A stretch of 64,000 nt of DNA from Rhizobium sp. Pop5 (GTDB lineage Bacteria > Pseudomonadota > Alphaproteobacteria > Rhizobiales > Rhizobiaceae). A program made the position numbers and the translations under genes. Position 1 is the stretch's first letter. The number at the start of each line of letters is the position of its first letter. Of this stretch, positions 31,743-54,928 are shown piece after piece. The notes under the pieces were generated by a model that worked only from the letters and a program-made list of their open reading frames with translations, searched no databases and had not been told where the DNA came from. The DNA lies in assembly GCF_024721175.1 (NCBI RefSeq), contig NZ_CP099402.1, forward strand, positions 496,001 to 560,000, given 5' to 3'.

Positions 31743-31799
31743 TGCTTTAAATCGCCATTCACATCGGCAGCATTTGCCGACACAGGAAGCGGAGGGAAC

Positions 31800-32456
31800 G
31801 TGCGTATCCTGCTTGTTGAAGACGACAGCATTCTCGGATCATCGCTGAAGAGGGCGCTGGAGAAACATGCCTATGGAGTCGACTGGATGCGCGACGGCCA
31901 GTCAGGTCTCGAAGCGGCGGAGCATTCGCATTTCGCGGCCGTCATCCTCGACATTAACCTCCCGGTGCTGGGTGGCATCGACGTCCTCAAAGGCATGAGG
32001 CGGAAGGGCAACACCGTCCCGGTCATGCTCCTGACAGCACTCGATGCCATCAGGCAGAAGGTCGAAGGCCTCGACGAGGGTGCCGACGACTATCTGATCA
32101 AACCCTTCGACCTTGACGAATTGCTCGCACGCCTGCGCGCCCTCATCCGTCGCCGCGAAGGCCGGACCGAAAGCCTCCTGCGGTGCGGCGATATCGAGGT
32201 GGATCCGTCGGCGATGGTGGCGCGCAAGGGCAGTCTTCAGGTTCATACCACCGCCAAGGAATTTCACCTGCTCAAGCTCCTGATGGAACGAAGCGGCCGC
32301 TATGTGACGAAGAACGATATCGAATACGCTCTCTACGATGCCAACAGCACCGTCGAAAGCAATGCCATCGAGGTGACGATCTACAATCTGCGCAAGAAGC
32401 TCGGAGCCGATTTCATTAAATCGATCCGTGGCATCGGTTACATGATCGAGCGATGA
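31800..32456 (+). CDS. OmpR-family response regulator (QseB/TctD-like)
   Basis: 218-residue regulator: a receiver domain with EDD near residues 8-10, the phosphoacceptor in VILDINLPVLGG and Lys in YLIKPF, then a winged helix ending IKSIRGIGYMIE. The start is GTG 31800, with GGAGGG immediately upstream. It overlaps the kinase gene by 4 bases. The downstream nine-gene lipid-type operon begins 168 bp after the kinase and is a plausible target. Confidence 0.93.
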   Translation: MRILLVEDDSILGSSLKRALEKHAYGVDWMRDGQSGLEAAEHSHFAAVILDINLPVLGGIDVLKGMRRKGNTVPVMLLTALDAIRQKVEGLDEGADDYLIKPFDLDELLARLRALIRRREGRTESLLRCGDIEVDPSAMVARKGSLQVHTTAKEFHLLKLLMERSGRYVTKNDIEYALYDANSTVESNAIEVTIYNLRKKLGADFIKSIRGIGYMIER

Positions 32457-33829
32457 GCCAGGCAACCCTCACACGCAAGATTTTCTTCAGGATCGCGCCG
32501 GTCGTGGCGGTGACGATAATGGTGATCGGCGCTTTCGCCTTCACGAGCGCCACGCGCGAGATAAACAACATCTATGATGCGCAGCTCATCAACGATGCGA
32601 ACGTCTTGTGGCGATTGTTGCATAACCGGCTGCAACATTCGCTCGAGCGCACGCCGCAACAAGTCGACGATATCGATTTCAGCATGGACAATCAGCTCGC
32701 CCTTAATGAGGATGCAGACGATTATGCCGACGCGCACATGTTCCGCGCTTGGGTGGACGGCAAGATCATGTTCTTCAGCAGCACAGCCTTTCAGTCCGAC
32801 GTGCCGCACCAGCAGGCAGGTTTCACGAACCTAAGCCATCACAATGAGAACTGGCGCGTCTATTCACTGCCGATCCCGAATTCCGGCATCGTCATGGAAG
32901 TCGGCGAGAAGATCTCGCTGCGCCAGACACTGGTTTCCAACATCCTTCTGAACCTGTTCTTTCCGCTGCTGGTGCTGGTGCCGATGATCGGCTTTCTGAT
33001 CTGGCTCGGGATCCACAATGGCCTGCGGACCATCCACGGGCTTGTGCACCAGATCCGCACCCGTTCGCCGGACGATCTTTCAGCCATTGCGGTCGAGGAT
33101 CTCCCGAGGGACCTTCTGCCTCTCGGCCGGTCGATCAATCAGCTTCTCGGCAAGCTCGGGCGGTCGTTGACGCTCGAAAGGCGCTTTTCGGATCTTGCCG
33201 CCCATCAACTGCGCACGCCGCAAGCAAGCGTCAAACTGCTCTTGCAGATGCTGGATAGCACCGAGGACGAACAGGAGCGGAAGGCGATCATTGCCGATCT
33301 GGTGACCAGCAACAACCGGGCAACCCATCTGATTGAGCAATTGCTGCGCCTCGCGAGAGTTAGCCACCATCCCCTCAATCCGATGCCTGTTCGCCTCTAC
33401 CATCTTATGGCATCGACGCTCGCGGAAGTGGGCAACATCATCACCAGCCGCAAGCTCGACGTCTCTTTGGTCGGTCCTGAATCGGCCGAGGTGAGGACGG
33501 ACGCATCGCTGCTGCAGATGATGGTCGGCAATCTCCTGGACAACGCGATAAAGTACACCCCACCCGGCGGTCGGATCGAGGTGGTTCTCGCCGCGGAGAC
33601 TGACTTCTGGCTGATTTCAATCAGTGACAGCGGACAGGGAATTCCGCCCGACGAACGCGAAGCCGTCTTCAAGCGCTTCTATCGTCTCGACACCCTCAGC
33701 GCCGAGGGCGCCGGCCTCGGGCTTGCCATCGTCGCCGACACGGCGGATCGTCTTGCGGCATCGGTCAAGCTTTCCACACCGGCCAGGGGGCTCGGCTTGC
33801 GGGTTGAGCTGCGACTGCCGAAGAACTGA
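32453..33829 (+). CDS. sensor histidine kinase (QseC/TctE-like)
   Basis: 458-residue kinase: helix 1 at about 15-35, a periplasmic region of about 120 residues, helix 2 near 160-180, a dimerisation helix with AAHQLRTPQASVK, and an ATPase domain with LLDNAIKYTPPGG, DSGQGIPPDE and GLGLAIV. The residue after the phospho-His is Gln, as in other TctE-type kinases. It is translationally coupled to the regulator. Confidence 0.92.
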   Translation: MSQATLTRKIFFRIAPVVAVTIMVIGAFAFTSATREINNIYDAQLINDANVLWRLLHNRLQHSLERTPQQVDDIDFSMDNQLALNEDADDYADAHMFRAWVDGKIMFFSSTAFQSDVPHQQAGFTNLSHHNENWRVYSLPIPNSGIVMEVGEKISLRQTLVSNILLNLFFPLLVLVPMIGFLIWLGIHNGLRTIHGLVHQIRTRSPDDLSAIAVEDLPRDLLPLGRSINQLLGKLGRSLTLERRFSDLAAHQLRTPQASVKLLLQMLDSTEDEQERKAIIADLVTSNNRATHLIEQLLRLARVSHHPLNPMPVRLYHLMASTLAEVGNIITSRKLDVSLVGPESAEVRTDASLLQMMVGNLLDNAIKYTPPGGRIEVVLAAETDFWLISISDSGQGIPPDEREAVFKRFYRLDTLSAEGAGLGLAIVADTADRLAASVKLSTPARGLGLRVELRLPKN

Positions 33830-33996
33830 ACCCGGACCGATACCTCTCGATCCCGATCGAAGCCTATCGAAACTGACCATCGCAGGCATTTCCGGCCGCG
33901 GCGTCCGCCTATTTCATTTTCGGATCATTTTCCCTTCAGTCCTGCCTCATCGGCCGTCGGTAAACACGACCGCAAGGCAGATTGAAGGGCTATTTG

Positions 33997-34680
33997 ATGC
34001 AGGTATTTTCTGATTTCGACGGCACGATTTCCATTCAGGATGTGACGGATGTCGTGCTGTCCTGTTTTGCCGAGCCAGAATGGGAAGACATCGAGCAGCA
34101 ATGGAAAGACGGCCTGATCGGATCGGCAGAGTGCATGCGCCGCCAGATCGCCCTCATCCGGGCAAGCCGCCGCGAACTCGATGCGATCCTCGACACCGTG
34201 GCGATCGACCCCGGCTTCCCAGCATTCCGCGACTACTGCCGCGTCAACGGCCTGCCCCTGACGATCGTCAGCGACGGCGTCGATTATTTCATCCGCCATG
34301 TGCTCGGGCGCAATGGCATCACCGATCTGCCCGTCGTCGCCAATCTGCTTCACTGCACCGTCGTCGACGGCCTTGAGAGCTACACTCTGGCAGCCGCTCC
34401 GAATTCGGCCGGCTGTTCGTCCGGCTCGGGCGTATGCAAATGCCGGGTCGTCTCCGGCATGGAGCCGCAGATCTATATCGGCGACGGACGGAGCGATTTC
34501 TGCGTTGCCGGCAGAGCCGACCTGGTCTTCGCCAAGGACAAACTCGCCGATTACTGCGACGACAAGAACATCCCCTTCATCGCCTTCGATGATTTCACCG
34601 ACCTGCTTTCCAAGATGAAAGCCGTCATTCCGGGCATCGCGCGTCAGCGCCGCGCGGTGCTGCAATCGAAAATCGCCTGA
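33997..34680 (+). CDS. HAD-superfamily phosphatase, MtnX/phosphoserine-phosphatase-like
   Basis: 227-residue cytosolic phosphatase. Motif I is FSDFDGT at the very N-terminus, motif II is TIVSDG and the acidic motif is IYIGDGRSDF. The family hydrolyses small phosphorylated metabolites (methylthiopentenyl phosphate, phosphoserine); the substrate here is unknown and no other methionine-salvage gene is present. ATG 33997 has GAAGGG 7 bases upstream. It opens a run of nine genes with short gaps or overlaps, so it probably removes a phosphate from a pathway intermediate. Confidence 0.85.
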   Translation: MQVFSDFDGTISIQDVTDVVLSCFAEPEWEDIEQQWKDGLIGSAECMRRQIALIRASRRELDAILDTVAIDPGFPAFRDYCRVNGLPLTIVSDGVDYFIRHVLGRNGITDLPVVANLLHCTVVDGLESYTLAAAPNSAGCSSGSGVCKCRVVSGMEPQIYIGDGRSDFCVAGRADLVFAKDKLADYCDDKNIPFIAFDDFTDLLSKMKAVIPGIARQRRAVLQSKIA

Positions 34681-34704
34681 ACCAGAAGACCAAGAGGCCC
34701 CCTT

Positions 34705-36126
34705 ATGAACATTGTGAACGCTGAAACCTTCAACGAAAAGACGCCGCTCTCCAACCTGACGGAAGCCGAGCTGCGCGTGCTGGAGGAGACCTATTGCTCC
34801 CACGGCGATACGGTCCATTATTCGGCGGAGCCGAAATTCTTCGAGGAATGCGAAGGTTCCTACGTCTATGATGCCAAGGGAACGCCGTTTCTCGATCTGC
34901 AGATGTGGTATTCCGCCGTCAATTTCGGCTACCGCAACGAAAGGCTGAATGCCGCGGTCCATCGCCAGCTGGACCGGCTGCCGCAGGTCGCTTCGCAATA
35001 TCTGCATCGCGAGAAGGTCGAACTGGCCGCCATGATCGCGCAGGACGCCGAACGCAAATTCGGCCGCAAGGGACGCGTTCATTTCAATGTCGGCGGATCG
35101 CAGGCGATCGAGGATTCGCTGAAGCTGGTGCGCAACTATACCGGCGGCAAAAGCCTGATGTTCGCCTTTGAGGGTGGCTATCACGGCCGCACGCTGGGCG
35201 CTTCGGCGATCACGTCAAGCTATCGCTACCGCCGCCGCTTCGGCCATTTCGGCGAAAGGGCCCAATTCGTCGAGTTTCCTTACCATTTCCGCGGCCCGAA
35301 GGGCATGACCAAGGAGGAATATGGCGAGCATTGCGTGCGCAAATTCGCCCGCCTCTTCGAAAGCGAATATAACGGCGTCTGGGATCCGAAGGTCGGCAGC
35401 GCAGAATATGCCGCCTTTTATGTCGAACCGATCCAGGGCACCGGCGGCTACGTCATTCCGCCGATGAATTTCTTCACTGAACTCAAGAAGGTTCTCGATC
35501 AGCACGGCATTCTGCTCGTCGTCGACGAGATCCAGATGGGTGTCTACCGGACCGGCAAACTCTGGTCGATCGAACATTTCGGCGTCTCGCCTGATGTTCT
35601 CGTCTTCGGCAAGGCGATCACCAATGGGCTCAACCCGCTGTCGGGTGTCTGGGCCAGGGAAGAAATGATCAATCCGACGGTCTTCCCGCCCGGTTCCACC
35701 CATTCCACCTTCGCCAGCAACCCGATGGGCACGGCCGTCGCGCTCGAAACCATGAAGATGCTGGAAGAGGAGGATTTCGGCGCCGCGATCATGGCCAAGG
35801 GCGCGTATTTCCTCGATGGCCTGAAACAGCTCCAGAAACGCCATGCGATCGTCGGCGATGTCGACGGGCTCGGATTGGCGCTGAGATGCGAGATCTGCAA
35901 GGAAGACGGCTTCACGCCTGACAAGACGACGATGGACTGGCTCTGCGACGAGGGCATGAAGGGCGATCTCACGGTCGGCGACAAGACCTATGGCCTCGTT
36001 CTCGACGTCGGCGGCTACCATAAAAACGTCATCACGCTGGCCCCGAACCTGCTGATTACCCGCGAGGAAATCGACCTGGCGCTAACGCTGCTCGACCAGC
36101 TCTTCACGCGTGCGGTCAGGAGGTAG
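34705..36126 (+). CDS. class III PLP-dependent aminotransferase
   Basis: 473-residue fold-type I aminotransferase. It shows FEGGYHGRTLGASA, the cofactor-binding VVDEIQMGVYRTG, and the PLP lysine in VFGKAITNG; STFASNP is the usual partner-subunit loop. Class III enzymes act on omega-amino or diamino compounds such as ornithine, diaminobutyrate and acetylornithine. It sits 24 bases after the phosphatase. Supply of an amino head group is inference from the cluster. Confidence 0.9.
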   Translation: MNIVNAETFNEKTPLSNLTEAELRVLEETYCSHGDTVHYSAEPKFFEECEGSYVYDAKGTPFLDLQMWYSAVNFGYRNERLNAAVHRQLDRLPQVASQYLHREKVELAAMIAQDAERKFGRKGRVHFNVGGSQAIEDSLKLVRNYTGGKSLMFAFEGGYHGRTLGASAITSSYRYRRRFGHFGERAQFVEFPYHFRGPKGMTKEEYGEHCVRKFARLFESEYNGVWDPKVGSAEYAAFYVEPIQGTGGYVIPPMNFFTELKKVLDQHGILLVVDEIQMGVYRTGKLWSIEHFGVSPDVLVFGKAITNGLNPLSGVWAREEMINPTVFPPGSTHSTFASNPMGTAVALETMKMLEEEDFGAAIMAKGAYFLDGLKQLQKRHAIVGDVDGLGLALRCEICKEDGFTPDKTTMDWLCDEGMKGDLTVGDKTYGLVLDVGGYHKNVITLAPNLLITREEIDLALTLLDQLFTRAVRR

Positions 36127-36130
36127 GCTC

Positions 36131-37084
36131 GTGCAGCTTCTCCTCCTTCATCTCGACGATGCTTTGGAGTTGCAGCCGGACTTCGTGCGCGCCTGCACGC
36201 TTGCGGGCGCGTGCCATCATGTCGACAAGCGGAGCGGCAGTGCAATCAGGTTGTGGGGCAGGCAGAGGATGCTTGCCGAACTCGGACGGGACATAGCCAG
36301 ATCGCTGCCGCCGCGCAGCAGAGGGCCGCAGCTTGCCTTCATGGGCTCGGGCGATTTCCATCATGTGACCGCGCTGCTGCTCGATGCCGCCCTCGAACGG
36401 CGCCCGGTTTCGACGACGCTCGTTCATTTCGACAATCACCCCGACTGGGTGAACTTCGAGGACGGCATGCATTGCGGCTCATGGGTCAACAGCGCCCTTT
36501 CAAACCCCAATGTCGAAAGGGTCGTTACCATCGGGGTCTGCAGCCACGACCTGCGCAATCCCGAGCGCAAGGGTGCCAATCTCGGCTGGCTCCGGCAGGG
36601 CAAGCTCGAACTTTATCCTTACGAGCATCCGCCAAGCCGCGTGAAGGCCGATTATGGCAACGGCCCGAGCTACCGCCAGGACAAGGGCGCCTTGCACTGG
36701 AATTCCATCTCCGGGATCGGCGAGGACAATTTCATCGACCGGATCCTCAGCCGCATCGGCACCGAAGCAGTTTATGTCACAGTCGACAAGGACGTTCTCG
36801 CGGCCGATGACGCCGTGACCAACTGGGATCAAGGGCGCATGCGGCTGCCCTATCTGATGGCGCTGATCAGCGAGATCGGCAGCCGCCATCGCATCATCGG
36901 CGCCGATGTCATCGGCGACTATTCGGTGCCGAGCTATGCCGGCGGCTTCACGACCCGCCTGCTCAAGCAGGCCGAAATCTTCATCGATCAACCGCGTCTG
37001 CGGCAGGCGGCCGATGCGGTGCGAAACATCAACAGCGCTGCAAATCACGCATTGCTGGAAGTCCTGGCGGAATCGATGGGATGA
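36131..37084 (+). CDS. arginase/ureohydrolase-fold protein
   Basis: 317-residue protein with the metal-ligand pattern of ureohydrolases: GSGDFHHV (the GGDH position), FDNHPDW (the D-x-H-x-D motif) and VTVDKDVLAADDA (the D-x-D motif). It could hydrolyse a guanidino or related C-N bond. Overall similarity to arginase or agmatinase is weak outside these motifs. The start is GTG 36131, with AGGAGG 7 bases upstream inside the aminotransferase end. It overlaps the next gene by 4 bases. Confidence 0.8.
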   Translation: MQLLLLHLDDALELQPDFVRACTLAGACHHVDKRSGSAIRLWGRQRMLAELGRDIARSLPPRSRGPQLAFMGSGDFHHVTALLLDAALERRPVSTTLVHFDNHPDWVNFEDGMHCGSWVNSALSNPNVERVVTIGVCSHDLRNPERKGANLGWLRQGKLELYPYEHPPSRVKADYGNGPSYRQDKGALHWNSISGIGEDNFIDRILSRIGTEAVYVTVDKDVLAADDAVTNWDQGRMRLPYLMALISEIGSRHRIIGADVIGDYSVPSYAGGFTTRLLKQAEIFIDQPRLRQAADAVRNINSAANHALLEVLAESMG

Positions 37085-37434
37085 ACGGCAGCCTCACATT
37101 GCCGATGCTCGGCCTGATCCTTTTCTGCGTGCTGGCGGAAACGGCGCGCGAGGTCTGCTTCAAGCAGGCTGCCAGCGACAGCCCCGTACTGGCGACGCTC
37201 ACCAAACCGCTGACCTGGCTCGGCATCGTCTTCTGGGCCATCGAACTGCTTGCCTGGACGGCCGTGCTTGCCAGCGTGCCGCTCACCATCGCCTTTCCGC
37301 TGATGGCGCTGAGCTACGTGGCGACCGTCGTCGCCGGCGCCGTCATCTTCAGGGAAAATATCAACCTTCGTCACGCGACGGGCGTGTTTCTCGTTACCGC
37401 CGGCGTGGCCTGTGTCGGAGCAACCGGACTATGA
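37081..37434 (+). CDS. small EamA/SMR-type four-helix transporter (first of pair)
   Basis: 117-residue inner-membrane protein with four helices, starting like small multidrug-resistance proteins and ending GVFLVTAGVACVG. A conserved Glu lies in the first helix (CVLAETAREVCFK). It overlaps both neighbours by 4 bases. A second protein of the same type lies at 40231 in the same operon, so they may form a heterodimer like ArnE/ArnF or EbrA/EbrB. Confidence 0.82.
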   Translation: MNGSLTLPMLGLILFCVLAETAREVCFKQAASDSPVLATLTKPLTWLGIVFWAIELLAWTAVLASVPLTIAFPLMALSYVATVVAGAVIFRENINLRHATGVFLVTAGVACVGATGL

Positions 37435-38303
37435 AAATCTTTGCCCATACCAAGTGGGATGCCGCTCCCGTGCTTGCCGCGGTGGCGCATCTCGTTTTCG
37501 ACGTCTACCTGATCGTCGGCTTCCAGAGCCGTCCGCTCTGGGCCTCATTGATCCTCGGCTGTCTCTATGCCGTGTCGATATCCTGGAACATCAACAGCAT
37601 CTCGCATAATTTCATCCACACCCCCTATTTCAAGCCGCATTGGATGAACTACGCCTTCAGCCTGCTGGAGTCGGTGGCGATCGGCTTTTCCCAGACCTAT
37701 TACCACTGGGTGCATATGCGCCATCACTCCGGCAACAGTGACCGGCCGGACGAGAAGGGCGAGACGATCGATCTTCTGTCGATCTATCGCCATGGCCGGA
37801 ACGGCGAGCCGGAAAACGTCTGGTCCTATACGCTGAAGAGCTTCTTCCGCGACAGTCTCGGCGATATCCACAAGGCCATTGCGAAGCGGCGTCCCTTCGA
37901 TGCCGCGTGGGGTCGTTTCGAGCTGCTGGCCTTTCTCGGCCTGGCGGCGATTGCGCTGATCTACGACTGGAAGGCCGTCCTGTTCTTCGTGCCCTTCTAT
38001 TATGCCGGCAACTGCCTGTCGTCGCTCAACGGCTATTACGAGCATCTTCACGGCGATCCGGACGAACCGATTGCCTGGGGCGTGAGCAGCCACAAGCCCT
38101 TCTATAACTGGCTATGGTTCGGCAATGGCTATCATGCCGAACATCATTACCGGCCGCGCACCCACTGGACGAAACTCTCGTCCCTGCACGAGCAGATCAA
38201 AGACGAGCAGGAAAGGGCCGGCACGCACGTGATCAGCACCTGCCATGCGTTCGGCTTCATGGCCCCGGAAAACCGCGAGGCGGAGCTTCGGCATGAGGTC
38301 TGA
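37431..38303 (+). CDS. membrane fatty acid desaturase
   Basis: 290-residue di-iron membrane desaturase or hydroxylase. The three histidine boxes are HNFIH (about 59-63), HMRHH (about 94-98) and HAEHH (about 232-236), with four hydrophobic segments between them. The family introduces double bonds or hydroxyl groups into acyl chains or related lipids. ATG 37431 overlaps the upstream transporter gene by 4 bases, and the end overlaps the hydrolase start by 11. The acyl substrate is unknown. Confidence 0.9.
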   Translation: MKIFAHTKWDAAPVLAAVAHLVFDVYLIVGFQSRPLWASLILGCLYAVSISWNINSISHNFIHTPYFKPHWMNYAFSLLESVAIGFSQTYYHWVHMRHHSGNSDRPDEKGETIDLLSIYRHGRNGEPENVWSYTLKSFFRDSLGDIHKAIAKRRPFDAAWGRFELLAFLGLAAIALIYDWKAVLFFVPFYYAGNCLSSLNGYYEHLHGDPDEPIAWGVSSHKPFYNWLWFGNGYHAEHHYRPRTHWTKLSSLHEQIKDEQERAGTHVISTCHAFGFMAPENREAELRHEV

Positions 38304-39108
38304 GGAATTGAGTTTCTTCCTGGAAGGCACGAATGGCAAAGGTGTGCTGCTGATCCATGGCCTGACCGGGGCGCCGGCCGAGATGAAGCTTGTCGCCCGC
38401 CAGCTCAACCGTCGCGGCTACAGCGTCCATGCGCCGCTGCTGGCCGGTCATGGAGAGGATATCAGGACATTGCGCCGGACGCATTGGGAGGACTGGCTGA
38501 AAAGCGTGCTGCGGGCCTGCGAATTCCTGGCCGAGCGAACGCGGGAGATATTTGCGGCCGGCATCTGCGTTGGCGGCAAGCTGTCACTGCTGGCGGCCGA
38601 GCAGCGGCCGGATCTGATCAAGGCGGTCGCCATCTATTCGCCCTGCTTCCACTATGACGGCTGGGATGTTCCCAGGCACTATACGCTGCTGTCGCCGCAT
38701 ATCGGATGGTTGTCGCGCATCCCTTTCCTCGATCGTCTCAATTTCAGGGAGAATGACTCCCTCGGCATCAAGGACGAGCGGATGCGGCGCATGGTCGAAG
38801 GCATGGCAGGCGAAGGCATGCTCGAGAAATTCCCCGGCCGCGGCATCGTCGAAATGCACCGGCTGGGCAAGGCGCTTCGCGGTACCCTGCCGCAGATCCA
38901 GACACCGACGCTGATCCTGCATGCGGAGGAAGACGATCTGAGCAATCCCAGACATGCCCTCTACATTTCAGAGCATATTGGCGGTCCGCATGAACTCAGA
39001 TGGATCAAGGACAGCTACCACATGATCCATCTCGATCGCCAGCATCGGCAGGTCGCGGCTTTCACGGCGGATTTTTTCGAGGCAAGCCATGCTGCAATTC
39101 GCGCATAA
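38293..39108 (+). CDS. alpha/beta hydrolase with Cys nucleophile position
   Basis: 271-residue serine-hydrolase-fold protein similar to monoacylglycerol lipase/carboxylesterase types. It has an IHGLTG oxyanion segment, the nucleophile elbow GICVGG with Cys92 in place of Ser, an acid in HAEEDDLSN and the catalytic His in DSYHMIHLD. A Cys there suggests either thioester or acyl-transfer chemistry, as in dienelactone hydrolases, or altered activity. It overlaps both the desaturase and the acyltransferase genes. Confidence 0.87.
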   Translation: MRSEELSFFLEGTNGKGVLLIHGLTGAPAEMKLVARQLNRRGYSVHAPLLAGHGEDIRTLRRTHWEDWLKSVLRACEFLAERTREIFAAGICVGGKLSLLAAEQRPDLIKAVAIYSPCFHYDGWDVPRHYTLLSPHIGWLSRIPFLDRLNFRENDSLGIKDERMRRMVEGMAGEGMLEKFPGRGIVEMHRLGKALRGTLPQIQTPTLILHAEEDDLSNPRHALYISEHIGGPHELRWIKDSYHMIHLDRQHRQVAAFTADFFEASHAAIRA

Positions 39109-40231
39109 ACGTCCCTTTCCCCGCGCCGATCCCGTCACGCAGGTCTACGACACGATCCGCGCCATCGGCCGCGAGGCGTGGAACGCCTGCTTCCGCGGTC
39201 AGGTCGAGGATTACGATTGCCTGCTGGCGATAGAAGGCGCCGGCATCGGCGACTTCGAGTGGCGCTACCTCACGATCGTGGAAGACGGCAAGATCAGCGC
39301 CGCCATGCCGGCGTTCCTGTGCCCTTATCCATTGGATACCACGCTGGAGGAGGGTCTGCCGCGCCGGCTGATACGGCGCGTGCGGCAGCATGCATCGGGT
39401 TTTCTCGTTCTGCGGCTTGCCTGCCTTGGCTCGCCCTGCACCGAAACCGGCGCGATAGGCTTTCATGCCGACGTTCCGGAGGAGCGCCGCGAGGCGCTGT
39501 TTGGACAATTGCTCACGGCCTTCGAGGCGCTTGCAGCCGAAGAGGGCTGCGCGCTGATGGGGATCAAGGACATTCCGGCACCGGTTGCCGCCGAATTCGG
39601 CGCGCTGTTTTCAAAACGCCGTTATGCCGCCATCGGCGGCCTGCCGTCCGCCTCGCTCGATATCGATTTCAGGACCATTGACGACTACATGGCCCGGCTG
39701 TCGGCGGGCACCCGAAAAGACATGCGGCGCAAGCTGAAATCCTTTGATGCCGTCAGGGTCGAAATCAGAACAGATATCGGCGATCTGCTTCCCCGGGTAA
39801 TGACGCTCTATCATGACACGCGCAATCGCAGCGAATGGCAGTTCGAGGAACTGACCCCGGCCTATTTTGAAGGCATCCTCACCCATATGGCGGGCCGCTC
39901 GTTCTGCGCTCTCTATTTCGTCGGCGACGAGCTGCTCGCCGCCAACCTGATCGTCCACGACGAACAGCTTGCGATCGACAAGTTCTTCTGCATGGACGGC
40001 GAGCGAGGGCGGCCCTACAACCTCTATTTCCTCAGCTGGTTCACCAATCTGCGCTATTGCCTCGATCATGGCCTTTCCCGCTACCAGAGCGGCCAGGCCT
40101 ATTATGAAAACAAGGTGCGGCTCGGCAGCCAGCTTACGGCAAACACCATGTTCTTCCGCCACCGCAATCGGCTGCTGCAGGCGCTGTTGCGGCTGGTCTC
40201 CCCGCTCTTTTCGCAGGATGAGGCCACGTGA
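39089..40231 (+). CDS. FemAB/GNAT-like N-acyltransferase
   Basis: 380-residue protein with a duplicated GNAT-like fold of the BioF2/FemAB-like type (conserved LSAGTRKDMRRKLK, LYHDTRNRS and a C-terminal YQSGQAYYENKVRLGS). Members transfer acyl or aminoacyl groups to amines. It overlaps the hydrolase gene by 20 bases and the second small transporter gene by one base. The likely role is joining an acyl chain and an amino head group in the operon's product, which is inference. Confidence 0.8.
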   Translation: MLQFAHKRPFPRADPVTQVYDTIRAIGREAWNACFRGQVEDYDCLLAIEGAGIGDFEWRYLTIVEDGKISAAMPAFLCPYPLDTTLEEGLPRRLIRRVRQHASGFLVLRLACLGSPCTETGAIGFHADVPEERREALFGQLLTAFEALAAEEGCALMGIKDIPAPVAAEFGALFSKRRYAAIGGLPSASLDIDFRTIDDYMARLSAGTRKDMRRKLKSFDAVRVEIRTDIGDLLPRVMTLYHDTRNRSEWQFEELTPAYFEGILTHMAGRSFCALYFVGDELLAANLIVHDEQLAIDKFFCMDGERGRPYNLYFLSWFTNLRYCLDHGLSRYQSGQAYYENKVRLGSQLTANTMFFRHRNRLLQALLRLVSPLFSQDEAT

Positions 40232-40659
40232 TGACGTCGATGCGCCTGACATGGCTCGCCGTGCCTGTCCTCAACACGCTGTTCCAGATCTTCACCAAGC
40301 TTGGCGCGACGCAACTCGGCAATGCCGAGGGGACGACCTGGCTGGAGGATGCGCTGACCTCACACTGGATCCTGGCAGCCGTCGTCGTCGAGATCGTCTG
40401 CTTCTTCATCTGGATGACGGTGCTCGCCGAACTCGACCTCAGCAAGGCGTTTCCGCTTTCCGGCATCAGCTACGTGCTGATCATTGCCACCGGCTGGTTC
40501 GCTTTCGGCGAACCGATCGTCAGCCTTCAGATCGTCGGCAGCGGCCTGATCCTCGCCGGTGTCTGGCTGATCGCCGGCGCATCGGAAAAAACGGGCAACG
40601 TCAGCGACAATGATGTTGGACCGATCCTGCCACATGCCCATGTCAGCAAGGATCGGTGA
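40231..40659 (+). CDS. small EamA/SMR-type four-helix transporter (second of pair)
   Basis: 142-residue inner-membrane protein with four helices (GWFAFGEPIVSLQIVGSGLI in the third and fourth) and a charged cytoplasmic tail of about 28 residues. ATG 40231 overlaps the acyltransferase stop. Together with the 117-residue protein at 37081 it probably forms an asymmetric dimer exporting or flipping the pathway product. Confidence 0.8.
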   Translation: MTSMRLTWLAVPVLNTLFQIFTKLGATQLGNAEGTTWLEDALTSHWILAAVVVEIVCFFIWMTVLAELDLSKAFPLSGISYVLIIATGWFAFGEPIVSLQIVGSGLILAGVWLIAGASEKTGNVSDNDVGPILPHAHVSKDR

Positions 40660-41996
40660 TGCAGCCAACCCAGAATTTCATCCTCCGTCACGCAAAGGGC
40701 GCTGCATCGGCGTTCAGCAATTGGGTTCTGGAGCACGCGCTCTCGCGCATCGTCACGCGCGGCTGCCTCAACGTCACAACATCCAATGGGCAGCAGCTTT
40801 CCTTCGGCGACGGATCCGGAGAGCAGATACATGTGAGCTTTGCCGACCTTGCCGCGCAATGGGCATTCCTCATCGATGCCGATCTGCGGCTCGGCGAACT
40901 CTATATGGATCGCCGCTTTCTCATCGAACAGGGCTCGCTCCACGACTTCCTGGCGATGATGCTGCGCGAGGCGCAGAACGCCAAGCATCCGCTCATCGCC
41001 CGGCTGATCGATCGTGCCCGCACCTGGCTGCGCATCTTCCGCCATCGCAATCTGCCGGCCCGCTCCAAAGCCAATGTCGCCCACCATTACGATCTCGATG
41101 GCCAGCTCTACGAACTCTTCCTCGACGCGGACCGGCAATATTCCTGCGCGTATTTCGAGAGCCCCGACCAATCGCTCGATGCGGCGCAACACGCCAAAAA
41201 GCGGCATCTCGCCGCGAAATTGCAGCTTGGGCCCGGCAAGAGCGTACTCGATATCGGTTGCGGCTGGGGTGGGCTCGCCCTGCACATGGCAAGGCATGTG
41301 CAGGGCGGGCATGTGCTCGGCATCACCCTGTCGGAGGAGCAGCATGGCTACGCCCTGAAGCGGCTTGCCGAACACGAGCGAATGGAGGCGGGCATCCAGT
41401 TTGCCCTTCAGGATTATCGCAGCCTGAGCAGACGGTTCGACCGGATCGTGTCGGTCGGCATGTTCGAGCATGTCGGCCTCGCATCCTACCGCGCCTTCTT
41501 CGAGAAATGTGCGGACCTGCTGGAAGATGACGGCATCATGGTTTTGCACACGATCGGCTGTTCGGCGACACCCGGCTTCACCACGCCTTGGCTCGACAAA
41601 TATATCTTTCCCGGCGGCTATATTCCCGCGCTGTCGGAAATCCTTCCCGAAATTGAAAAAGCCGGTCTTGCGGTTGCCGACATCGAGGTCCTGCGCCTGC
41701 ACTATGCCTGGACGCTGGCACATTGGCGGAAGCGCTTCCTGGCGCGCTGGCAGGAGGCTGCCGCCCTTTACGACGAACGCTTCTGCCGCATGTGGGAATT
41801 CTACCTTGCAAGCGCCGAAGCCGCATTCCGCTACGAAGATCTGGTGGTTTTCCAGATCCAGCTAAGCAAGCGCAACGACGTCATTCCCGTGACGCGGGAC
41901 TATATCGGCCAGCATGAGAAAGCGGCGGCGCAAAGTTCAAAAGCCGATCTGGAAGGAGCGGCTGAGCGTGATGCCGATGACGTTCTGGTCGGCTGA
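40659..41996 (+). CDS. cfa: cyclopropane-fatty-acyl-phospholipid synthase-like methyltransferase
   Basis: 445-residue SAM-dependent enzyme. The N-terminal domain (about 1-120) is of the lipid-binding type; then come HHYDLDGQLYELFLD, the SAM motif VLDIGCGWGGLALHMA, and FDRIVSVGMFEHVG, all typical of the Cfa family. It would methylate or cyclopropanate unsaturated acyl chains, matching the desaturase in the operon. The 3' 250 bases are repeated at 50922-51171. The stop lies inside a remnant of the convergent mipA gene. Confidence 0.9.
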   Translation: MQPTQNFILRHAKGAASAFSNWVLEHALSRIVTRGCLNVTTSNGQQLSFGDGSGEQIHVSFADLAAQWAFLIDADLRLGELYMDRRFLIEQGSLHDFLAMMLREAQNAKHPLIARLIDRARTWLRIFRHRNLPARSKANVAHHYDLDGQLYELFLDADRQYSCAYFESPDQSLDAAQHAKKRHLAAKLQLGPGKSVLDIGCGWGGLALHMARHVQGGHVLGITLSEEQHGYALKRLAEHERMEAGIQFALQDYRSLSRRFDRIVSVGMFEHVGLASYRAFFEKCADLLEDDGIMVLHTIGCSATPGFTTPWLDKYIFPGGYIPALSEILPEIEKAGLAVADIEVLRLHYAWTLAHWRKRFLARWQEAAALYDERFCRMWEFYLASAEAAFRYEDLVVFQIQLSKRNDVIPVTRDYIGQHEKAAAQSSKADLEGAAERDADDVLVG

Positions 41997-42040
41997 GCCA
42001 AGCCTTGAGGTGATCGGGCTGTCGGCGGCATCGCCCACCA
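41747..42040. repeat. 294-bp direct repeat, left copy
   Basis: About 98-99% identical to 50922-51215 (constant offset 9175; four mismatches counted by eye). It covers the last 250 bases of the cyclopropane-synthase gene and the overlapping 3' end of mipA. Together with the right copy it brackets a 8.8-kb gene module. Confidence 0.9.
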
Positions 42041-42120: not shown

Positions 42121-43440
42121 TCAGGCAGTTCGCACCATGACACTTGCGACAAGGCCCGGCCCGTCGTCGCGCATGGCGAGTGTGAGCCGCACACCTTGCC
42201 TTTCGGCTGCCGCCTTTGCGATCGCCAACCCCAAGCCGCTCCCCTCGCTATCCTCACGCCTTGCCCTGAAAAAGCGTTCAAAGACGCGTGGCATCTCTTC
42301 CTCAGCGATACCGGGGCCGGTGTCGCGGATTTCGATTCGTGTTTCTTGTCCAGCGACGACCACCGCAACGTCGACGGTTCCACCCGGTGGAGTGTACCGC
42401 ACGGCGTTCTCGACGAGATTGTCAAGGATGATCTCCAAATCGGCCAGCGCACCGATCATGATAACCTTGTCCCGGCGCGTGATGCCGAGGTCAATCTCCC
42501 GGCTCTCGGCGAGCGGGGTCAGCCGCGCAACAGTGTCGAGCGCAAGCTGGACGAGGTCGACCGGCTGCGGCGCGGGCGCGGTCTCGTGAGCGTCGTAGCG
42601 CGCGAGGCGCAAGAGCTTGCTCACAAGGCTGGTGGCTCTGCCGATTCCAGCTTCGAGCTCGGTCAAACGGTTGCAAAATCGGCCATCCCGGTCGTCGTGC
42701 CGAAGGTTGTCGATTTGAATTTGCAGCGCCGAGAGCGGTGTGCGCAATTCGTGGGCTGCGTCAGAAATAAACCGCCGCTGTCTCTCCAGCAGTGCGCGGA
42801 GCCGGGCGAGCGACAGATTGATCGAATTTACGAAGGGAATGACTTCGGCGGGCACGTCGTCGGTCGGAACGGGGCTGTCCACCGTCGTGTCTCGCGAGGC
42901 GACCGCGACGGCCAGGCGATTGAGTCGAGCCATGATCCGATCGATGATCCAACTCAGCGTCAGCAATGACAACGGAATCAGAACGATGATTGGAAGTGCC
43001 GCCTGGAGCGCGGCATTGGCCGCCAGTTCCTGCCGGACGCTCATATCCTGGGAAACCTGAACAGTTCGATCCGGCGCGGCCAGCGTGTAGACGCGCCAGT
43101 TGTCACTGCCGGTCGAAACGTCGGCAAAACCGGTCGCTGATTGGCGGGGGATACCGACGGCGGGATGCGATTGTCGCAACGTCCGACCGGCCGCATCCCA
43201 GACCTGGATGACGAAATCGTCTTCAGGATCGTGCGGTGCACCGTTATCTGGACCTGTTTCTGGCGATGAACGCGCATCCCCGATATAAACTGCGATCTGC
43301 CGCAGCTGATTGTCGAGGAAGTCCGATGCCTCGTTCTGAACGAGGAAGTATGATGTTGTCGCCGCAATGACACCAATGGTTGCCATCAAGCCGGCGAGCC
43401 ATAAGAAAGCCGTGCGTCGGATCGAAGTTGCGCCTCTCAC
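42121..43440 (-). CDS. sensor histidine kinase of the inserted module
   Basis: 439-residue kinase: helix 1 near 8-30, a periplasmic region of about 115 residues, helix 2 near 150-170, HAMP, SDAAHELRTPLSALQIQ, LVENAVRYTPPGG and GLGLAIAKAAAE. I prefer GTG 43440, which overlaps the regulator stop; TTG 43455 is the longer alternative. It pairs with the regulator at 43437 and is divergent from the secreted-protein/ABC operon, its probable target. Confidence 0.92.
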   Translation of the reverse strand: MRGATSIRRTAFLWLAGLMATIGVIAATTSYFLVQNEASDFLDNQLRQIAVYIGDARSSPETGPDNGAPHDPEDDFVIQVWDAAGRTLRQSHPAVGIPRQSATGFADVSTGSDNWRVYTLAAPDRTVQVSQDMSVRQELAANAALQAALPIIVLIPLSLLTLSWIIDRIMARLNRLAVAVASRDTTVDSPVPTDDVPAEVIPFVNSINLSLARLRALLERQRRFISDAAHELRTPLSALQIQIDNLRHDDRDGRFCNRLTELEAGIGRATSLVSKLLRLARYDAHETAPAPQPVDLVQLALDTVARLTPLAESREIDLGITRRDKVIMIGALADLEIILDNLVENAVRYTPPGGTVDVAVVVAGQETRIEIRDTGPGIAEEEMPRVFERFFRARREDSEGSGLGLAIAKAAAERQGVRLTLAMRDDGPGLVASVMVRTA

Positions 43441-44093
43441 TTGGGGACCATCCAACCTGCCCCCCGGACGTTGCGTACAATATCCTTGTCGAATTTGCGT
43501 CGCACGTAGTGGATCAGCACGTCGATAGCGTTGCTTTCCACCTCCTCACCCCAGCCATAGAGCCTTTCCTCCAGTTGGGTGCGCGAAAGAATGGTTCCTG
43601 GACGCTCCAGCAATGCCTGAAGCAGTGCAAATTCGCGCGCTGGCAATACTTCGCCGCACCCCCGATATTTCACCTCATGGCTAGATAGATCGAGCTCGAT
43701 TTCGCTCGTATAGAGGATCGAAACCGCCTGACCTCCGTGCCGGCGCAAGACCGCACGCATGCGTGCAAGCAGTTCTTTGACCTCGAACGGCTTCACCAGA
43801 TAGTCGTCTGCCCCGAGGTCGAGCCCCGTGACGCGATCGTCGAGTTCGTCACGAGCGGTGATCACCAGGATTGGCCTCTTGTCGCCGGCTTCCCGCAGCG
43901 AGCTAAGAATCTCAAGGCCGGAACGGCCGGGCAAGCCGAGGTCGAGCAACACAAGACCATGCCCGCCAACCGCGACGGCTTCGTTCCCGAGGTGCCCGTC
44001 CCGCACCCAGTCTACCGACATGCCGGCATCGTCGAGGGCTTGTACGAGGGCCCGGCCAAGCATGACATCATCTTCGATCACAAGAACACGCAT
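43437..44093 (-). CDS. OmpR-family response regulator of the inserted module
   Basis: 218-residue regulator with receiver acidic pair EDD near residues 7-9, phosphoacceptor in LVLLDLGLPGRSG, Lys in YLVKPF, and a winged helix ending VRNVRGAGWMVPK. It starts at ATG 44093. The 135-base gap to the plus-strand gene at 44229 should hold divergent promoters, though no clear repeat operator was seen. Confidence 0.93.
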   Translation of the reverse strand: MRVLVIEDDVMLGRALVQALDDAGMSVDWVRDGHLGNEAVAVGGHGLVLLDLGLPGRSGLEILSSLREAGDKRPILVITARDELDDRVTGLDLGADDYLVKPFEVKELLARMRAVLRRHGGQAVSILYTSEIELDLSSHEVKYRGCGEVLPAREFALLQALLERPGTILSRTQLEERLYGWGEEVESNAIDVLIHYVRRKFDKDIVRNVRGAGWMVPK

Positions 44094-44805: not shown

Positions 44806-45467
44806 ATGCGTGTATTGGAGGCGACCGAGCTTTATCGCTTCTATCATGCAGGCGACGACGAAGTCGTGGCTTTACGCGGGGTTGCCATCGCGCTCGATGC
44901 CGGAGAATTCACCGCTTTGAGGGGGCCGTCGGGCAGCGGGAAATCGACGCTGCTTGCCTGCCTTGCCGGGCTCGATGAGCCGGACGGAGGCGTAGTGTCT
45001 GTCCTGGGCGAACGCATGACCCGACGCCCCGAGCCGGAGCGGGCTCGGCTTAGGGCACGTCATTTTGGCATGCTCATGCAATCCGGCAATCTGTTCGAGC
45101 ATCTGACGGTGCGAGCCAACATCCGTCTCCAGATGGAGATTTCCGGCCATGGGCGACCAGGCGAAATTGATGATCTTGTCGGCAGTCTGGGCCTCGATGG
45201 CCTCGCCGACGTGTTACCTGCCCACCTTTCAGGGGGGAGGCAGCACGCGCTGGCCTAGCCGTCGCGCTCGCCGCAAAACCACAGATCCTGCTCTGCGATG
45301 AACCCACTGCCGAAGTCGACGCGGCAACGGAACAGCTCGTCATCGATCGCCTCGTCGAAGTTTGTCGCAGCGGGACTGCCGTCCTGGTCGTCACGCACAG
45401 CCTTGCCCTCGCTGCACGAGCCGATCGCACGATTGACATCCGCGATGGAGGCATCGTGCATGACTAG
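44806..45467 (+). pseudogene. ABC transporter ATPase (LolD/MacB type) with frameshift
   Basis: The first frame gives 150 codons with Walker A GPSGSGKST and the start of the signature LSGG, then stops at 45256. After a run of six G (around 45233-45238) one added base restores EAARAGLAVALAAKP, Walker B ILLCDEPTAEVD and the H-loop VVTHS through to a stop at 45465. The intact product would be about 220 residues. This is either a true single-base deletion or a homopolymer sequencing error. It overlaps the next ATPase gene by 8 bases. Confidence 0.85.
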
Positions 45468-46143
45468 AACCCTTGTTGAGGCCGCCGATCTTTGGCGCAG
45501 CTTCCAGCGCGAACGTGGCGTCGTGGCAGCCGTTCAAGGATGCTCCTTCAAGATTAAAGCGGGGGAAACCATTGCAATCGTGGGGCCGTCGGGCTGCGGA
45601 AAGACGACGCTTTTAAACCTGATCGCAGGACTGGACGTCCCAAGCTCAGGACGAGTGGAATGGCCTGGGCTTGGTTCGCCCGACACACTGCGCCCGGAGC
45701 GAATTGGCGTCGTCTTCCAATCTGCGAACCTGATGCCCGCACTCACCGCCGTTGAGAATGTCGAGCTACCGATCCTTCTCGGTGACGGCTCCGAAGCCGA
45801 GGCGCGCGCCCTGGCGGCGCTTGCCACTTTCAGCGTCGAAGCGCTTGCTGGAAAGTTGCCAGAACAGCTCTCCGGCGGCCAGGCTGAGCGGATCGCAGTA
45901 GCCCGCGCCATTGTCACCAATCCGGAATTGATCGTCGCTGACGAGCCGACAGGCCAACTCGATCAGGCTGGCGCTGCGATGCTGGTCGATCGGCTCCTTG
46001 CCTGGGGACAACAGGCTGGAAGCGCCATCATCATCGCCACGCATGATGAGCACGTAGCGGCAAAGATGAACCGTATCTGGCGAATGCGTCATGGCAAATT
46101 TGAAAGCATGGACGAGAGGCTCACATGTACAGGCACTGGCTGA
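45460..46143 (+). CDS. ABC transporter ATP-binding protein (LolD/MacB type)
   Basis: 227-residue ATPase with Walker A GPSGCGKTT, Q-loop VVFQSANLMP, signature LSGGQAERIAVARAI, Walker B LIVADEPTGQLD and H-loop IATHDEHV. The type serves FtsX-like permeases in lipoprotein or peptide export. It overlaps the permease gene by 19 bases. With the upstream ATPase frameshifted, this may be the only functional ATPase of the system. Confidence 0.93.
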   Translation: MTRTLVEAADLWRSFQRERGVVAAVQGCSFKIKAGETIAIVGPSGCGKTTLLNLIAGLDVPSSGRVEWPGLGSPDTLRPERIGVVFQSANLMPALTAVENVELPILLGDGSEAEARALAALATFSVEALAGKLPEQLSGGQAERIAVARAIVTNPELIVADEPTGQLDQAGAAMLVDRLLAWGQQAGSAIIIATHDEHVAAKMNRIWRMRHGKFESMDERLTCTGTG

Positions 46144-50921: not shown

Positions 50922-51171
50922 CTGGCAGGAGGCTGCCGCCCTTTACGACGAACGCTTCTGCCGCATGTGGGAATTTTACCTTGCAAGCGCCGAAGCCGCA
51001 TTCCGCTACGAGGATCTGGTGGTTTTCCAGATCCAGCTAAGCAAGCGCAACGACGTCATTCCGGTGACGCGGGACTATATCGGCCAGCATGAGAAAGCGG
51101 CGGCGCAAAGTTCAAAAGCCGATCTGGAAGGAGCGGCTGAGCGTGATACCGATGACGTTCTGGTCGGCTGA
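50922..51171 (+). pseudogene. 3' fragment of cyclopropane-synthase gene
   Basis: Encodes the last 80 or so residues of the synthase at 40659, with a single substitution near the end (RDTDDVLVG for RDADDVLVG), but has no upstream part or start. It is a by-product of the duplication described for the direct repeats. Confidence 0.88.
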
Positions 51172-51215
51172 GCCAAGCCTTGAGGTGATCGGGCTGTCGG
51201 CGGCATCGCCCACCA
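50922..51215. repeat. 294-bp direct repeat, right copy
   Basis: Counterpart of 41747-42040. It carries the last 250 bases of the cyclopropane-synthase gene (codons from MWEFYLASAE onward are intact, but there is no start) and the 3' end of the complete mipA gene. It marks the right boundary of the inserted module. Confidence 0.9.
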
Positions 51216-51933
51216 GGCGGTTATATTTGTCGTAGATCTGCACGCTCCAGGCCGGTGAGAACGTATAGGTGGCGGCCAGCGTGAAACCGATGGATTTGAG
51301 ACCGCCATTCGCGTCGAACGCCTCGACGCGACCACTCCTGGCAGCTTCCTCGGCGGAAACCGCGAAATTGTTGCGCATATAGGCGCCGTTTGCCAGAGAC
51401 ATGCGCGGACCGGCAGACAGCAGCCAGCGATCGCCGACCGGCTGGAACCAATCGAGATAGAGATCGGCAAGCAGACCGTCGCCGCCCCACAACGCCTGAC
51501 GTGTTTCCGTCCGCACACGCAGGCGATCCTCTATCGGCCAATATTGCGCAAAGACGCCGGCGTCCAAGCTCCACTGGACCGAATGCAAACCCTGCAGTTC
51601 GGAATCGTCGAATGCCGACCGCCCTCCTCTCAGGCCGACGACAGGGCCGATGTCGACACCGCCGATATCGAAAAGCCCGTAGTCGATATTATCGTCCGGC
51701 GCGCTGTATTCAGGCGCTTCGCCGAACCGCCGAAAATCGAAAGACGGCATGCCACTGAAGGAAAGGTGCTTCGATCCTTCATAGGAAGGACCGTATTCGA
51801 CGGATCCGCCAAGGGTTATGATCCACTGGTTATCGGAGGATTTTGCATCCTGGCTCAAGGCCGAATGGGATCCCAGGAATATCAGCGGCAACGATAACGC
51901 CGCGCGGAATAATGCCCTGCCCGATGAGGCCAT
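51112..51933 (-). CDS. mipA: MipA/OmpV-family outer-membrane protein
   Basis: 273 residues: a signal peptide (about 1-28, ALSQ), then a beta-barrel of the MipA/OmpV family with alternating aromatic strands and a C-terminal Phe (RSFQIGF). MipA proteins are outer-membrane barrels linked to murein enzymes or antimicrobial resistance. ATG 51933 opens the signal peptide. Its 3' end overlaps the synthase fragment convergently, and a truncated copy lies at 41937-42114. Confidence 0.85.
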   Translation of the reverse strand: MASSGRALFRAALSLPLIFLGSHSALSQDAKSSDNQWIITLGGSVEYGPSYEGSKHLSFSGMPSFDFRRFGEAPEYSAPDDNIDYGLFDIGGVDIGPVVGLRGGRSAFDDSELQGLHSVQWSLDAGVFAQYWPIEDRLRVRTETRQALWGGDGLLADLYLDWFQPVGDRWLLSAGPRMSLANGAYMRNNFAVSAEEAARSGRVEAFDANGGLKSIGFTLAATYTFSPAWSVQIYDKYNRLVGDAADSPITSRLGSADQNVIGITLSRSFQIGF

Positions 51934-54415: not shown

Positions 54416-54928
54416 ACAGGTTTCTTCCAATCGACATGTGATGCAGTTCGCTGTGAGCCCCCGCAAAGTCGGAGCCAGCGGCATGAGCTTTCGCCAGAGA
54501 CGGCTGGCGAGCTTTGTATTGCTGTCTAGCAATCGTTTATGAGCGCTGGATTAGGCGTAACTGAAGCGAAACTGAAAACGGCTCTCCCCTCCGCGACGCC
54601 ACCGACATCGAACTCCGTGATTGGCACGGCCGAGATCGGCCGCGGGCCCGAACATGCAAATCATCTGAATACGGGCCTGCCCATAACCCGCCAGCCTGGG
54701 CCGGCCCAAACCAGTTGGCTCGAGCATGGTCCGGCCCCTTGTGAGATAGGGCCCTACCCGAAATCCGTATTCGGGATGTCGGCGTCAGCGTCGCTCGCGC
54801 GTCCTTGGGAACATCGAGAGCGCCCGCCCCGCGCGCTCCGCTTGCCTGAACGAGATTTTGCATCAATAGCCCACCCGCAGAGCGAATTCCCACCGCCCCA
54901 GTTTGTAAAAAGATCACAGGAGATAAAG
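54416..54928. other. gene-free region upstream of the reductase
   Basis: About 510 bases with GC-rich, partly repetitive sequence around 54650-54760 and no reading frame with recognisable similarity. It should contain the divergent promoters of the caspase-like and reductase genes, but no clear box was found. Confidence 0.5.

Follow-up and report, generated by a model that had tools for sequence, protein, structure and literature searches.

A conserved nine-gene operon of Rhizobium sp. Pop5 that may make and export a cationic aminolipid

The Arn (pmrHFIJKLM) operon of Escherichia coli is an envelope operon with a pyridoxal phosphate (PLP) aminotransferase and a heteromeric pair of small multidrug resistance (SMR) proteins, ArnE/ArnF. 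The present study describes a nine-gene operon of Rhizobium sp. Pop5 that shares these features, and each of its two SMR proteins (SMR1 and SMR2) best matches one of the Arn subunits. The operon lies in a stretch of 64,000 nucleotides (contig NZ_CP099402.1, positions 496,001 to 560,000), referred to here as the window and numbered from its first letter. Unlike the Arn operon, its nine genes include no ArnA, ArnC, ArnD or ArnT, its aminotransferase belongs to class III instead of the DegT family, and SMR1 carries an acid where ArnE has Ser and ArnF has Ala.

In the ornithine-lipid pathway (OlsB/OlsA), an amine is acylated by a GNAT-type enzyme. Our locus differs in that the Pfam matches of its nine genes include no OlsA-type acyltransferase family, a comparison made without a direct Ols search. 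A report on the sphingolipid/ceramide cluster of Caulobacter crescentus describes a clustered pathway for an acyl amine lipid with an N-acyltransferase, the desaturase/hydroxylase being encoded elsewhere (PMC11324152). The likeness to the proposed role of our operon lies in an acyl amine lipid made by a clustered pathway with an N-acyltransferase. In contrast, none of the nine genes encodes a serine palmitoyltransferase, and no product name in the annotated relatives that were seen points to one. An earlier note on this DNA knew of no described system with this gene set; likewise, no paper on it was found in the literature that we searched (mainly titles and the beginnings of abstracts, with most subscription journals outside the search).

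We propose that the operon is a self-regulated accessory pathway whose cationic product carries both an acyl chain and an amine, is most likely an aminolipid of the membrane, and is exported or flipped via the SMR pair. To this reading we give about even chances of being right.

Conservation and proposed control of the operon

Nine genes on the plus strand fill positions 33997 to 41996 (Table 1). Open frames, translations and curated Pfam families confirmed them, and the families agree with those named in the earlier note. The gene for the ureohydrolase (arginase)-fold enzyme, hereafter ARG, most likely starts at GTG 36131 rather than at 36110, since GGAGG precedes this codon and annotated relatives begin at the matching residue, 4 bases past the aminotransferase stop. 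With this start, the junctions are gaps of 24 and 4 bases followed by overlaps of 4, 4, 11, 20, 4 and 4 bases. Thus, gaps of at most 24 bases stand as first described, and the seven overlaps counted before become six.

An alignment profile of 16 rows, with ARG as the bait, was run against genome contigs and found at least 559 encoded relatives, of which the best 80 by ARG similarity were kept. The closest titled locus for the ARG protein among them is that of Rhizobium hidalgonense (L023, 99%). The genes for the phosphatase, the class III aminotransferase (AT3), ARG, SMR1, the alpha/beta hydrolase, the FemAB/GNAT acyltransferase and SMR2 stood together on one strand in 74 of these 80 loci; all nine genes were present in 43, and the gene order was the same in other species. 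Six loci fell outside the core set: L090 and L099, which are cut by the end of the stretch or contig, L093 on a 6.1-kb contig, and L094, L096 and L097. The SMR pair was not in place in L094 and L097. A gene set conserved in the same order is more than chance, and the operon is a real unit. The earlier note had asked whether all nine families co-occur in other genomes, with conservation of only unrelated subsets as the outcome that would speak against it; that outcome did not occur.

The desaturase and the Cfa-like methyltransferase are optional genes, not core. On an aminotransferase tree of 81 rows, their presence and absence needed 12 changes by parsimony (one of them, in L064, arises because the Cfa gene is cut by the end of a short contig), so these tailoring genes come and go. 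Where Cfa was in the operon, the desaturase accompanied it in 43 of 44 loci. This is expected if Cfa acts on the desaturase product, and it is in line with the desaturase-then-Cfa pairing suggested before. Five Phyllobacterium loci without an in-operon Cfa (L061, L062, L067, L068 and L078) had a Cfa homologue (69 to 70%) at the upstream edge of the stretch, on the opposite strand. Distance correlations between the gene families ranged from 0.43 to 0.98; they ignore kinship, are probably spoiled by distant class III hits, and carry little weight here.

A response regulator gene lay upstream in 67 of the 80 relatives and a histidine kinase gene in 68, and a minus-strand mipA gene lay within the stretch in 55. 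Both its position and a conserved array of repeats in the promoter tie the upstream two-component pair to the operon. Alignment of the sequence 5′ of the phosphatase gene revealed a conserved block containing this array, whose exact pattern had its sole match in the window at 33914 to 33949. In the whole genome (6.74 Mb, up to two mismatches), two array sites were found, and a reversed control pattern found none. In 69 of 82 loci, a relaxed form lay no more than 160 bases from the start of the phosphatase gene, where its density across these stretches would predict 0.0037 per locus; as the 82 loci are related to one another, these are not 82 independent cases. The array was present in all 67 loci with a cognate regulator (at least 60% identity) and in none of the 13 without. 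The two further array-bearing loci (L064 and L090) have their upstream part cut off, and some of the 13 array-less loci have a more distant regulator upstream (49 to 53% in L095, L097 and L101). No array was found 5′ of mipA (0/58) or 5′ of the regulator gene (0/65).

These four 11-bp promoter repeats travelling with the regulator gene are newly seen here. By eye, the array overlaps the −35 region, which we take to be usual for activators of this regulator family, and it is probably the site of the response regulator. Control by the adjacent two-component pair, as put forward in the earlier note, is thus backed by position and by the pairing of array and regulator. The second array copy of the genome also lies in the window, before a gene for a caspase-domain protein, and the array precedes the orthologues of this gene in L025 and L029 (found by alignment; a stricter pattern missed both). 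Among the fetched loci, these were the only two with a match to the gene besides the window's own. The caspase-domain gene is a possible second member of the predicted regulon. Judged by eye, its protein seems to have other residues where the catalytic His and Cys usually stand.

Enzyme families and the SMR pair

ARG shares with the ureohydrolases (arginase, agmatinase, guanidinase) their fold and their H...DxHxD...DxD metal ligands. Its model was confident (mean pLDDT 93.8), and the 50 matches listed, of 870, in a fold search with it were ureohydrolases: agmatinases, guanidinopropionase, arginases, guanidinase and their kin, at 11 to 19% identity. H77, H78, D101, H103, D219 and D221 were invariant in 32 rows and D105 was kept in 31 of them. 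By fold and by its complete two-metal ligand set, ARG belongs to the ureohydrolase superfamily. It differs from the known enzymes in its low identity to the 50 listed structures and in a TNWDQG motif, invariant in 32 rows, that aligns with the GTPEPGG region of an agmatinase. An agmatinase proper was rejected by the same structure identities and by scores under the cut-offs of two NCBIfam families (27.6 against 302 and 20.6 against 174.3 bits; agmatinase models only). An HDAC-like deacetylase was rejected as well, as none was among the 50 fold matches listed of 870. From sequence and model, ARG probably forms a branch of its own and is active as a two-metal hydrolase.

These fold matches, together with the membership of the guanidinium exporter Gdx in the SMR family, could suit an operon that breaks down or detoxifies a guanidino or polyamine compound by means of a ureohydrolase and an aminotransferase, with GNAT acetylating and SMR exporting. 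We consider such an operon very improbable. The identity to those structures is low, the agmatinase GTPEPGG region is replaced by TNWDQG, and such an operon leaves the desaturase, Cfa and FemAB-like genes without an obvious role. Furthermore, nothing in the window reached the gathering score of any Rfam family, not even of a guanidine riboswitch.

Among NCBIfam profiles, SMR1 scored best with ArnE (50.9 bits, cut-off 92) and SMR2 with ArnF (44.2 bits, cut-off 99); since both scores are under the curated cut-offs, membership of ArnE/ArnF was rejected. In pairwise BLAST, SMR1 was clearly closest to ArnE. Glu14 of EmrE binds protons and cationic cargo. In its column, SMR1 has Glu and SMR2 has Asn, against Ser in E. 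coli ArnE and Ala in ArnF. The subunits of other lineages have Asp or Glu, both being Asp in the Xanthomonas and Roseomonas pairs. At least one subunit therefore holds an acid at this position, according to an alignment with E. coli SMR proteins and to conservation over 81 SMR1 copies. That SMR1 retains this EmrE-type residue suggests a cationic cargo for the pair. The acid is shared with the exporters EmrE, MdtI-MdtJ and Gdx of the same family, among which the annotation makes MdtI and MdtJ the two subunits of a single pump. In contrast to these, our pair matches the ArnE/ArnF profiles best, stands within a biosynthetic operon and has Asn in SMR2.

The resemblance to ArnE/ArnF would also serve an Arn-like pathway, in which an amino sugar or amine is placed on undecaprenyl phosphate or lipid A and lowers envelope charge. 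Several neighbours point the same way: a DegT/DnrJ gene (a sugar-aminotransferase family) adjoins the SMR pair in Xanthomonas, Roseomonas and several further genomes, UppP lies nearby in Roseomonas, and in the Agrobacterium fabrum plasmid pAt2788a (L020, 15907–17942), genes annotated as eptA (phosphoethanolamine-lipid A transferase) and dgkA (diacylglycerol kinase) follow the operon and mipA. We nevertheless judge this pathway improbable, given that ArnA, ArnC, ArnD and ArnT are missing from the nine genes and were not found by product name in the annotated stretches (plasmid gene tables being incomplete and the rest of the genome not searched). Moreover, no DegT match lay near the operon in L023 to L093, and the SMR scores do not reach the ArnE/ArnF cut-offs.

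Of the remaining enzymes, the phosphatase kept its DxDGT motif in 86 of 87 copies (some loci counted twice). The desaturase scored 101 bits with PF00487 (cut-off 29.7) and has the three His boxes of that family (HNFIH, HMRHH and HAEHH). The Cfa-like protein scored 592.5 bits with NF053839, whose cut-off is 600. The genome holds two other Cfa-like genes (49% and 35%), plus a fragment from a 294-bp duplication, and no other desaturase match at E ≤ 0.001; hence, the operon Cfa and desaturase look dedicated. The hydrolase resembles monoacylglycerol lipases, and its motif was GIC.GG in 82 of 93 copies, GLS.G in 10 and neither in one (again with some loci counted twice). The FemAB/GNAT protein gave a confident model (pLDDT 90.0) and, by sequence, no significant relative among solved structures, the one match being at E 0.38.

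Relatives elsewhere and the proposed pathway

Of 398 Pseudomonadota genomes (our own among them), 16 gave a match to the ARG profile (E ≤ 1e-10) and 24 gave one to the AT3 protein (E ≤ 1e-170). All 16 ARG genomes fall within the 24 AT3 genomes (hypergeometric 5e-23, kinship not corrected). In the eight genomes with AT3 only, the phosphatase and hydrolase genes adjoined AT3 in every locus and a ketosynthase gene did so in four, the SMR pair was found in one and a partial GNAT-like match in two; three of the contigs are shorter than 8 kb. The deepest core seen is therefore phosphatase, aminotransferase and alpha/beta hydrolase. The AT3 proteins were 72 to 97% identical in operon loci, 65 to 77% in the other sampled Pseudomonadota and 75% in Xanthomonas; AT3 is a subfamily found with this gene set. 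The operon is patchy: within the order, ARG occurred in 11 of 297 genomes (own included), and the genus has three further genomes, all of which lack it.

A set of 72,556 plasmid records gave 46 matches to ARG and 33 to AT3, the latter in Rhizobium (15), Agrobacterium (10), Bartonella (5) and three more genera with a single record apiece. Counted by genus, 11 records of Roseomonas, one of Aureimonas and one of Azospirillum account for the difference. One of the five Bartonella plasmids, from a bat isolate (L137, 6242–12257), was examined and carries AT3, GNAT and ARG beside AlgX-like and MBOAT (DltB-like) genes. In Xanthomonas sacchari, phosphatase, AT3, GNAT and ARG genes share one strand, and the opposite strand holds genes for a ketosynthase, an acyl carrier protein, a DegT/DnrJ aminotransferase, two SMR proteins, an alpha/beta hydrolase, HlyD, ABC, TolC and a two-component pair. 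ABC/TolC export genes lie near other loci too; like the eptA and dgkA genes directly downstream in L020, they count in favour of the proposed aminolipid. Two loci (L018 and L139) have a glutamate-semialdehyde-aminomutase-type enzyme instead of AT3 and retain most of the core. Some relatives have a ketosynthase gene in the cluster, in places with an acyl carrier protein gene, which points to acyl chemistry.

We infer the identity of the product and the order of the enzymes, and likewise the chemistry of the head group, the transfer and tailoring of the acyl chain, the signal and the direction in which the product is transported. An envelope signal would activate the OmpR-type regulator, which would bind the array and switch the operon on. 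The aminotransferase, the phosphatase and the ureohydrolase-fold enzyme may prepare an amine head group, and the FemAB/GNAT enzyme may join it to an acyl chain, with the Cys-type alpha/beta hydrolase as a putative acyl carrier or thioesterase. The chain would be tailored by the optional desaturase and then by Cfa. Finally, the SMR1/SMR2 pair would carry the cationic product outward in a proton-coupled manner, and MipA may cooperate at the outer membrane.

In a more specific form, the product would be a cationic membrane lipid of a new, inducible class. Its synthesis would begin with a 3-ketoacyl thioester from an acyl carrier protein and a FabF-like ketosynthase, which some relatives have in the cluster and which otherwise belong to general fatty acid synthesis. 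While this is still carrier-bound, AT3 would turn it into a 3-amino acyl chain. The hydrolase, with its Cys or Ser, would release or transfer the chain, the FemAB/GNAT enzyme would N-acylate it, the desaturase and Cfa would modify it further, and a proton-coupled SMR heteromer would flip the product. Transamination on a carrier has a precedent in iturin-type lipopeptides. We hold this detailed scheme with little confidence.

Several observations weigh against the aminolipid reading. None of the nine genes proves a lipid product, and their Pfam matches include no acyl-activating enzyme and no glycosyltransferase. The desaturase was in the operon in only 62 of the 80 loci and Cfa in 44, and both are hence missing from many. 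The choice of the best 80 of at least 559 relatives by ARG similarity makes the sample lean to close relatives. Farther out, AT3 is swapped for a glutamate-semialdehyde-aminomutase-type class III enzyme in Aureimonas and Roseomonas, and the hydrolase nucleophile is Ser in Roseomonas and Xanthomonas; therefore, the product may differ between lineages. AT3 and ARG are on separate contigs in one genome (G505). ARG stands without the rest of the operon in L096, L133 and L134 (20 to 21 kb) and in L093 (the 6.1-kb contig), at 48 to 50% identity; in L096 (Rhodomicrobium) it is alone in 21 kb. The eptA/dgkA genes are no general neighbour, as their adjacency was seen in L020 only among the loci checked. 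Lastly, SMR2 was nearly equally close to EmrE and ArnF in BLAST, and the Xanthomonas pair was closest to EmrE.

This last point, the acid of SMR1, the ABC/HlyD/TolC genes close to some loci and the often plasmid-borne, patchy occurrence would also suit a small water-soluble secreted amine (antibiotic-like, a signal or a metallophore), with the SMR pair as an ordinary cation exporter. Such a product is possible, if somewhat unlikely, as the operon holds a membrane desaturase and a Cfa-like enzyme, and the known substrates of both kinds of enzyme are acyl chains. Besides, the SMR pair consists of two different subunits that match ArnE and ArnF best among curated profiles. The making and flipping of an aminolipid, as the earlier note had it, remains the best explanation at even confidence, fitting the ArnE/ArnF-like pair and the acid kept in SMR1. 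Its desaturase and Cfa steps have to be taken as optional rather than as part of the core.

Flanking genes and implications

Table 1. Coordinates of the operon, its predicted control elements and the flanking features in the window
Feature	Position	Strand	Basis or remark
Response regulator, OmpR type (Response_reg + Trans_reg_C)	31794-32456	+	Pfam; upstream of operon
Sensor histidine kinase with 2CSK_N domain	32453-33829	+	Pfam; upstream of operon
Promoter array, four TCA direct repeats in 11-bp steps	33912-33951 (repeats 33914-33949)	+	Probable response-regulator site
HAD: MtnX-like HAD-IB phosphatase, DxDGT present	33997-34680	+	Pfam; NCBIfam TIGR01489 above cut-off
AT3: class III PLP aminotransferase	34705-36126	+	Pfam
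ARG: ureohydrolase (arginase)-fold enzyme, complete two-metal ligand set	36131-37084	+	Pfam, model, fold search
SMR1: SMR/EamA protein, ArnE-like	37081-37434	+	EamA 24.9 bits, slightly under Pfam cut-off 28.2
DES: membrane fatty acid desaturase/hydroxylase, three His boxes	37431-38303	+	PF00487
ABH: alpha/beta hydrolase, monoacylglycerol-lipase-like, GICVGG (Cys nucleophile)	38293-39108	+	Pfam
GNAT: FemAB-like/GNAT acyltransferase	39089-40231	+	PF04339 (FemAB_like) + PF13480 (Acetyltransf_6)
SMR2: SMR/EamA protein, ArnF-like	40228-40659	+	Pfam, NCBIfam
CFA: Cfa-like methyltransferase (cyclopropane synthase family, CMAS)	40656-41996	+	PF02353
294-bp duplication, copy 1 (3′ ends of Cfa and mipA)	41747-42040	direct repeat	99% identity
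294-bp duplication, copy 2	50922-51215	direct repeat	99% identity
Intact mipA/ompV	51112-51933	-	tblastn 91% to L016 mipA; family PF06629
Caspase-domain (Peptidase_C14) protein	52013-54532	-	PF00656; true start probably inside frame
Second array copy	54538-54577	-	Upstream of caspase-domain gene

In relatives, mipA adjoins the operon; in the window it is about 9 kb away. The stretch of about 8.9 kb between the two copies of the duplication holds a second two-component pair (42121–44093, minus strand), ABC/FtsX genes and a DUF347 gene. This second pair lies downstream of mipA in L024, and its kinase alone does so in L023, which indicates that the gene order has been rearranged in the window. 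In most loci, it is the upstream pair that is conserved together with the operon, not that at 42121–44093. The ABC/FtsX module is not generally conserved: parts of it were found in L020 and L024, and the DUF347 gene in six loci including L020. At 44806–46143, an ABC ATPase frame (44806–45258) stops prematurely, and a second ATPase frame and then an FtsX permease come after it; this is possibly a broken gene.

The conserved gene set occurs in Alphaproteobacteria and, among Gammaproteobacteria, in Xanthomonas. Plasmids of bacteria associated with plants often carry it, and it usually has its own sensor and promoter site. The promoter array provides a handle for inducing the operon and seeking its product directly. 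If the product is indeed a cationic lipid, soil and plant bacteria would have an inducible route to alter their envelope charge, and the heteromeric SMR pair would gain a biosynthetic cargo.

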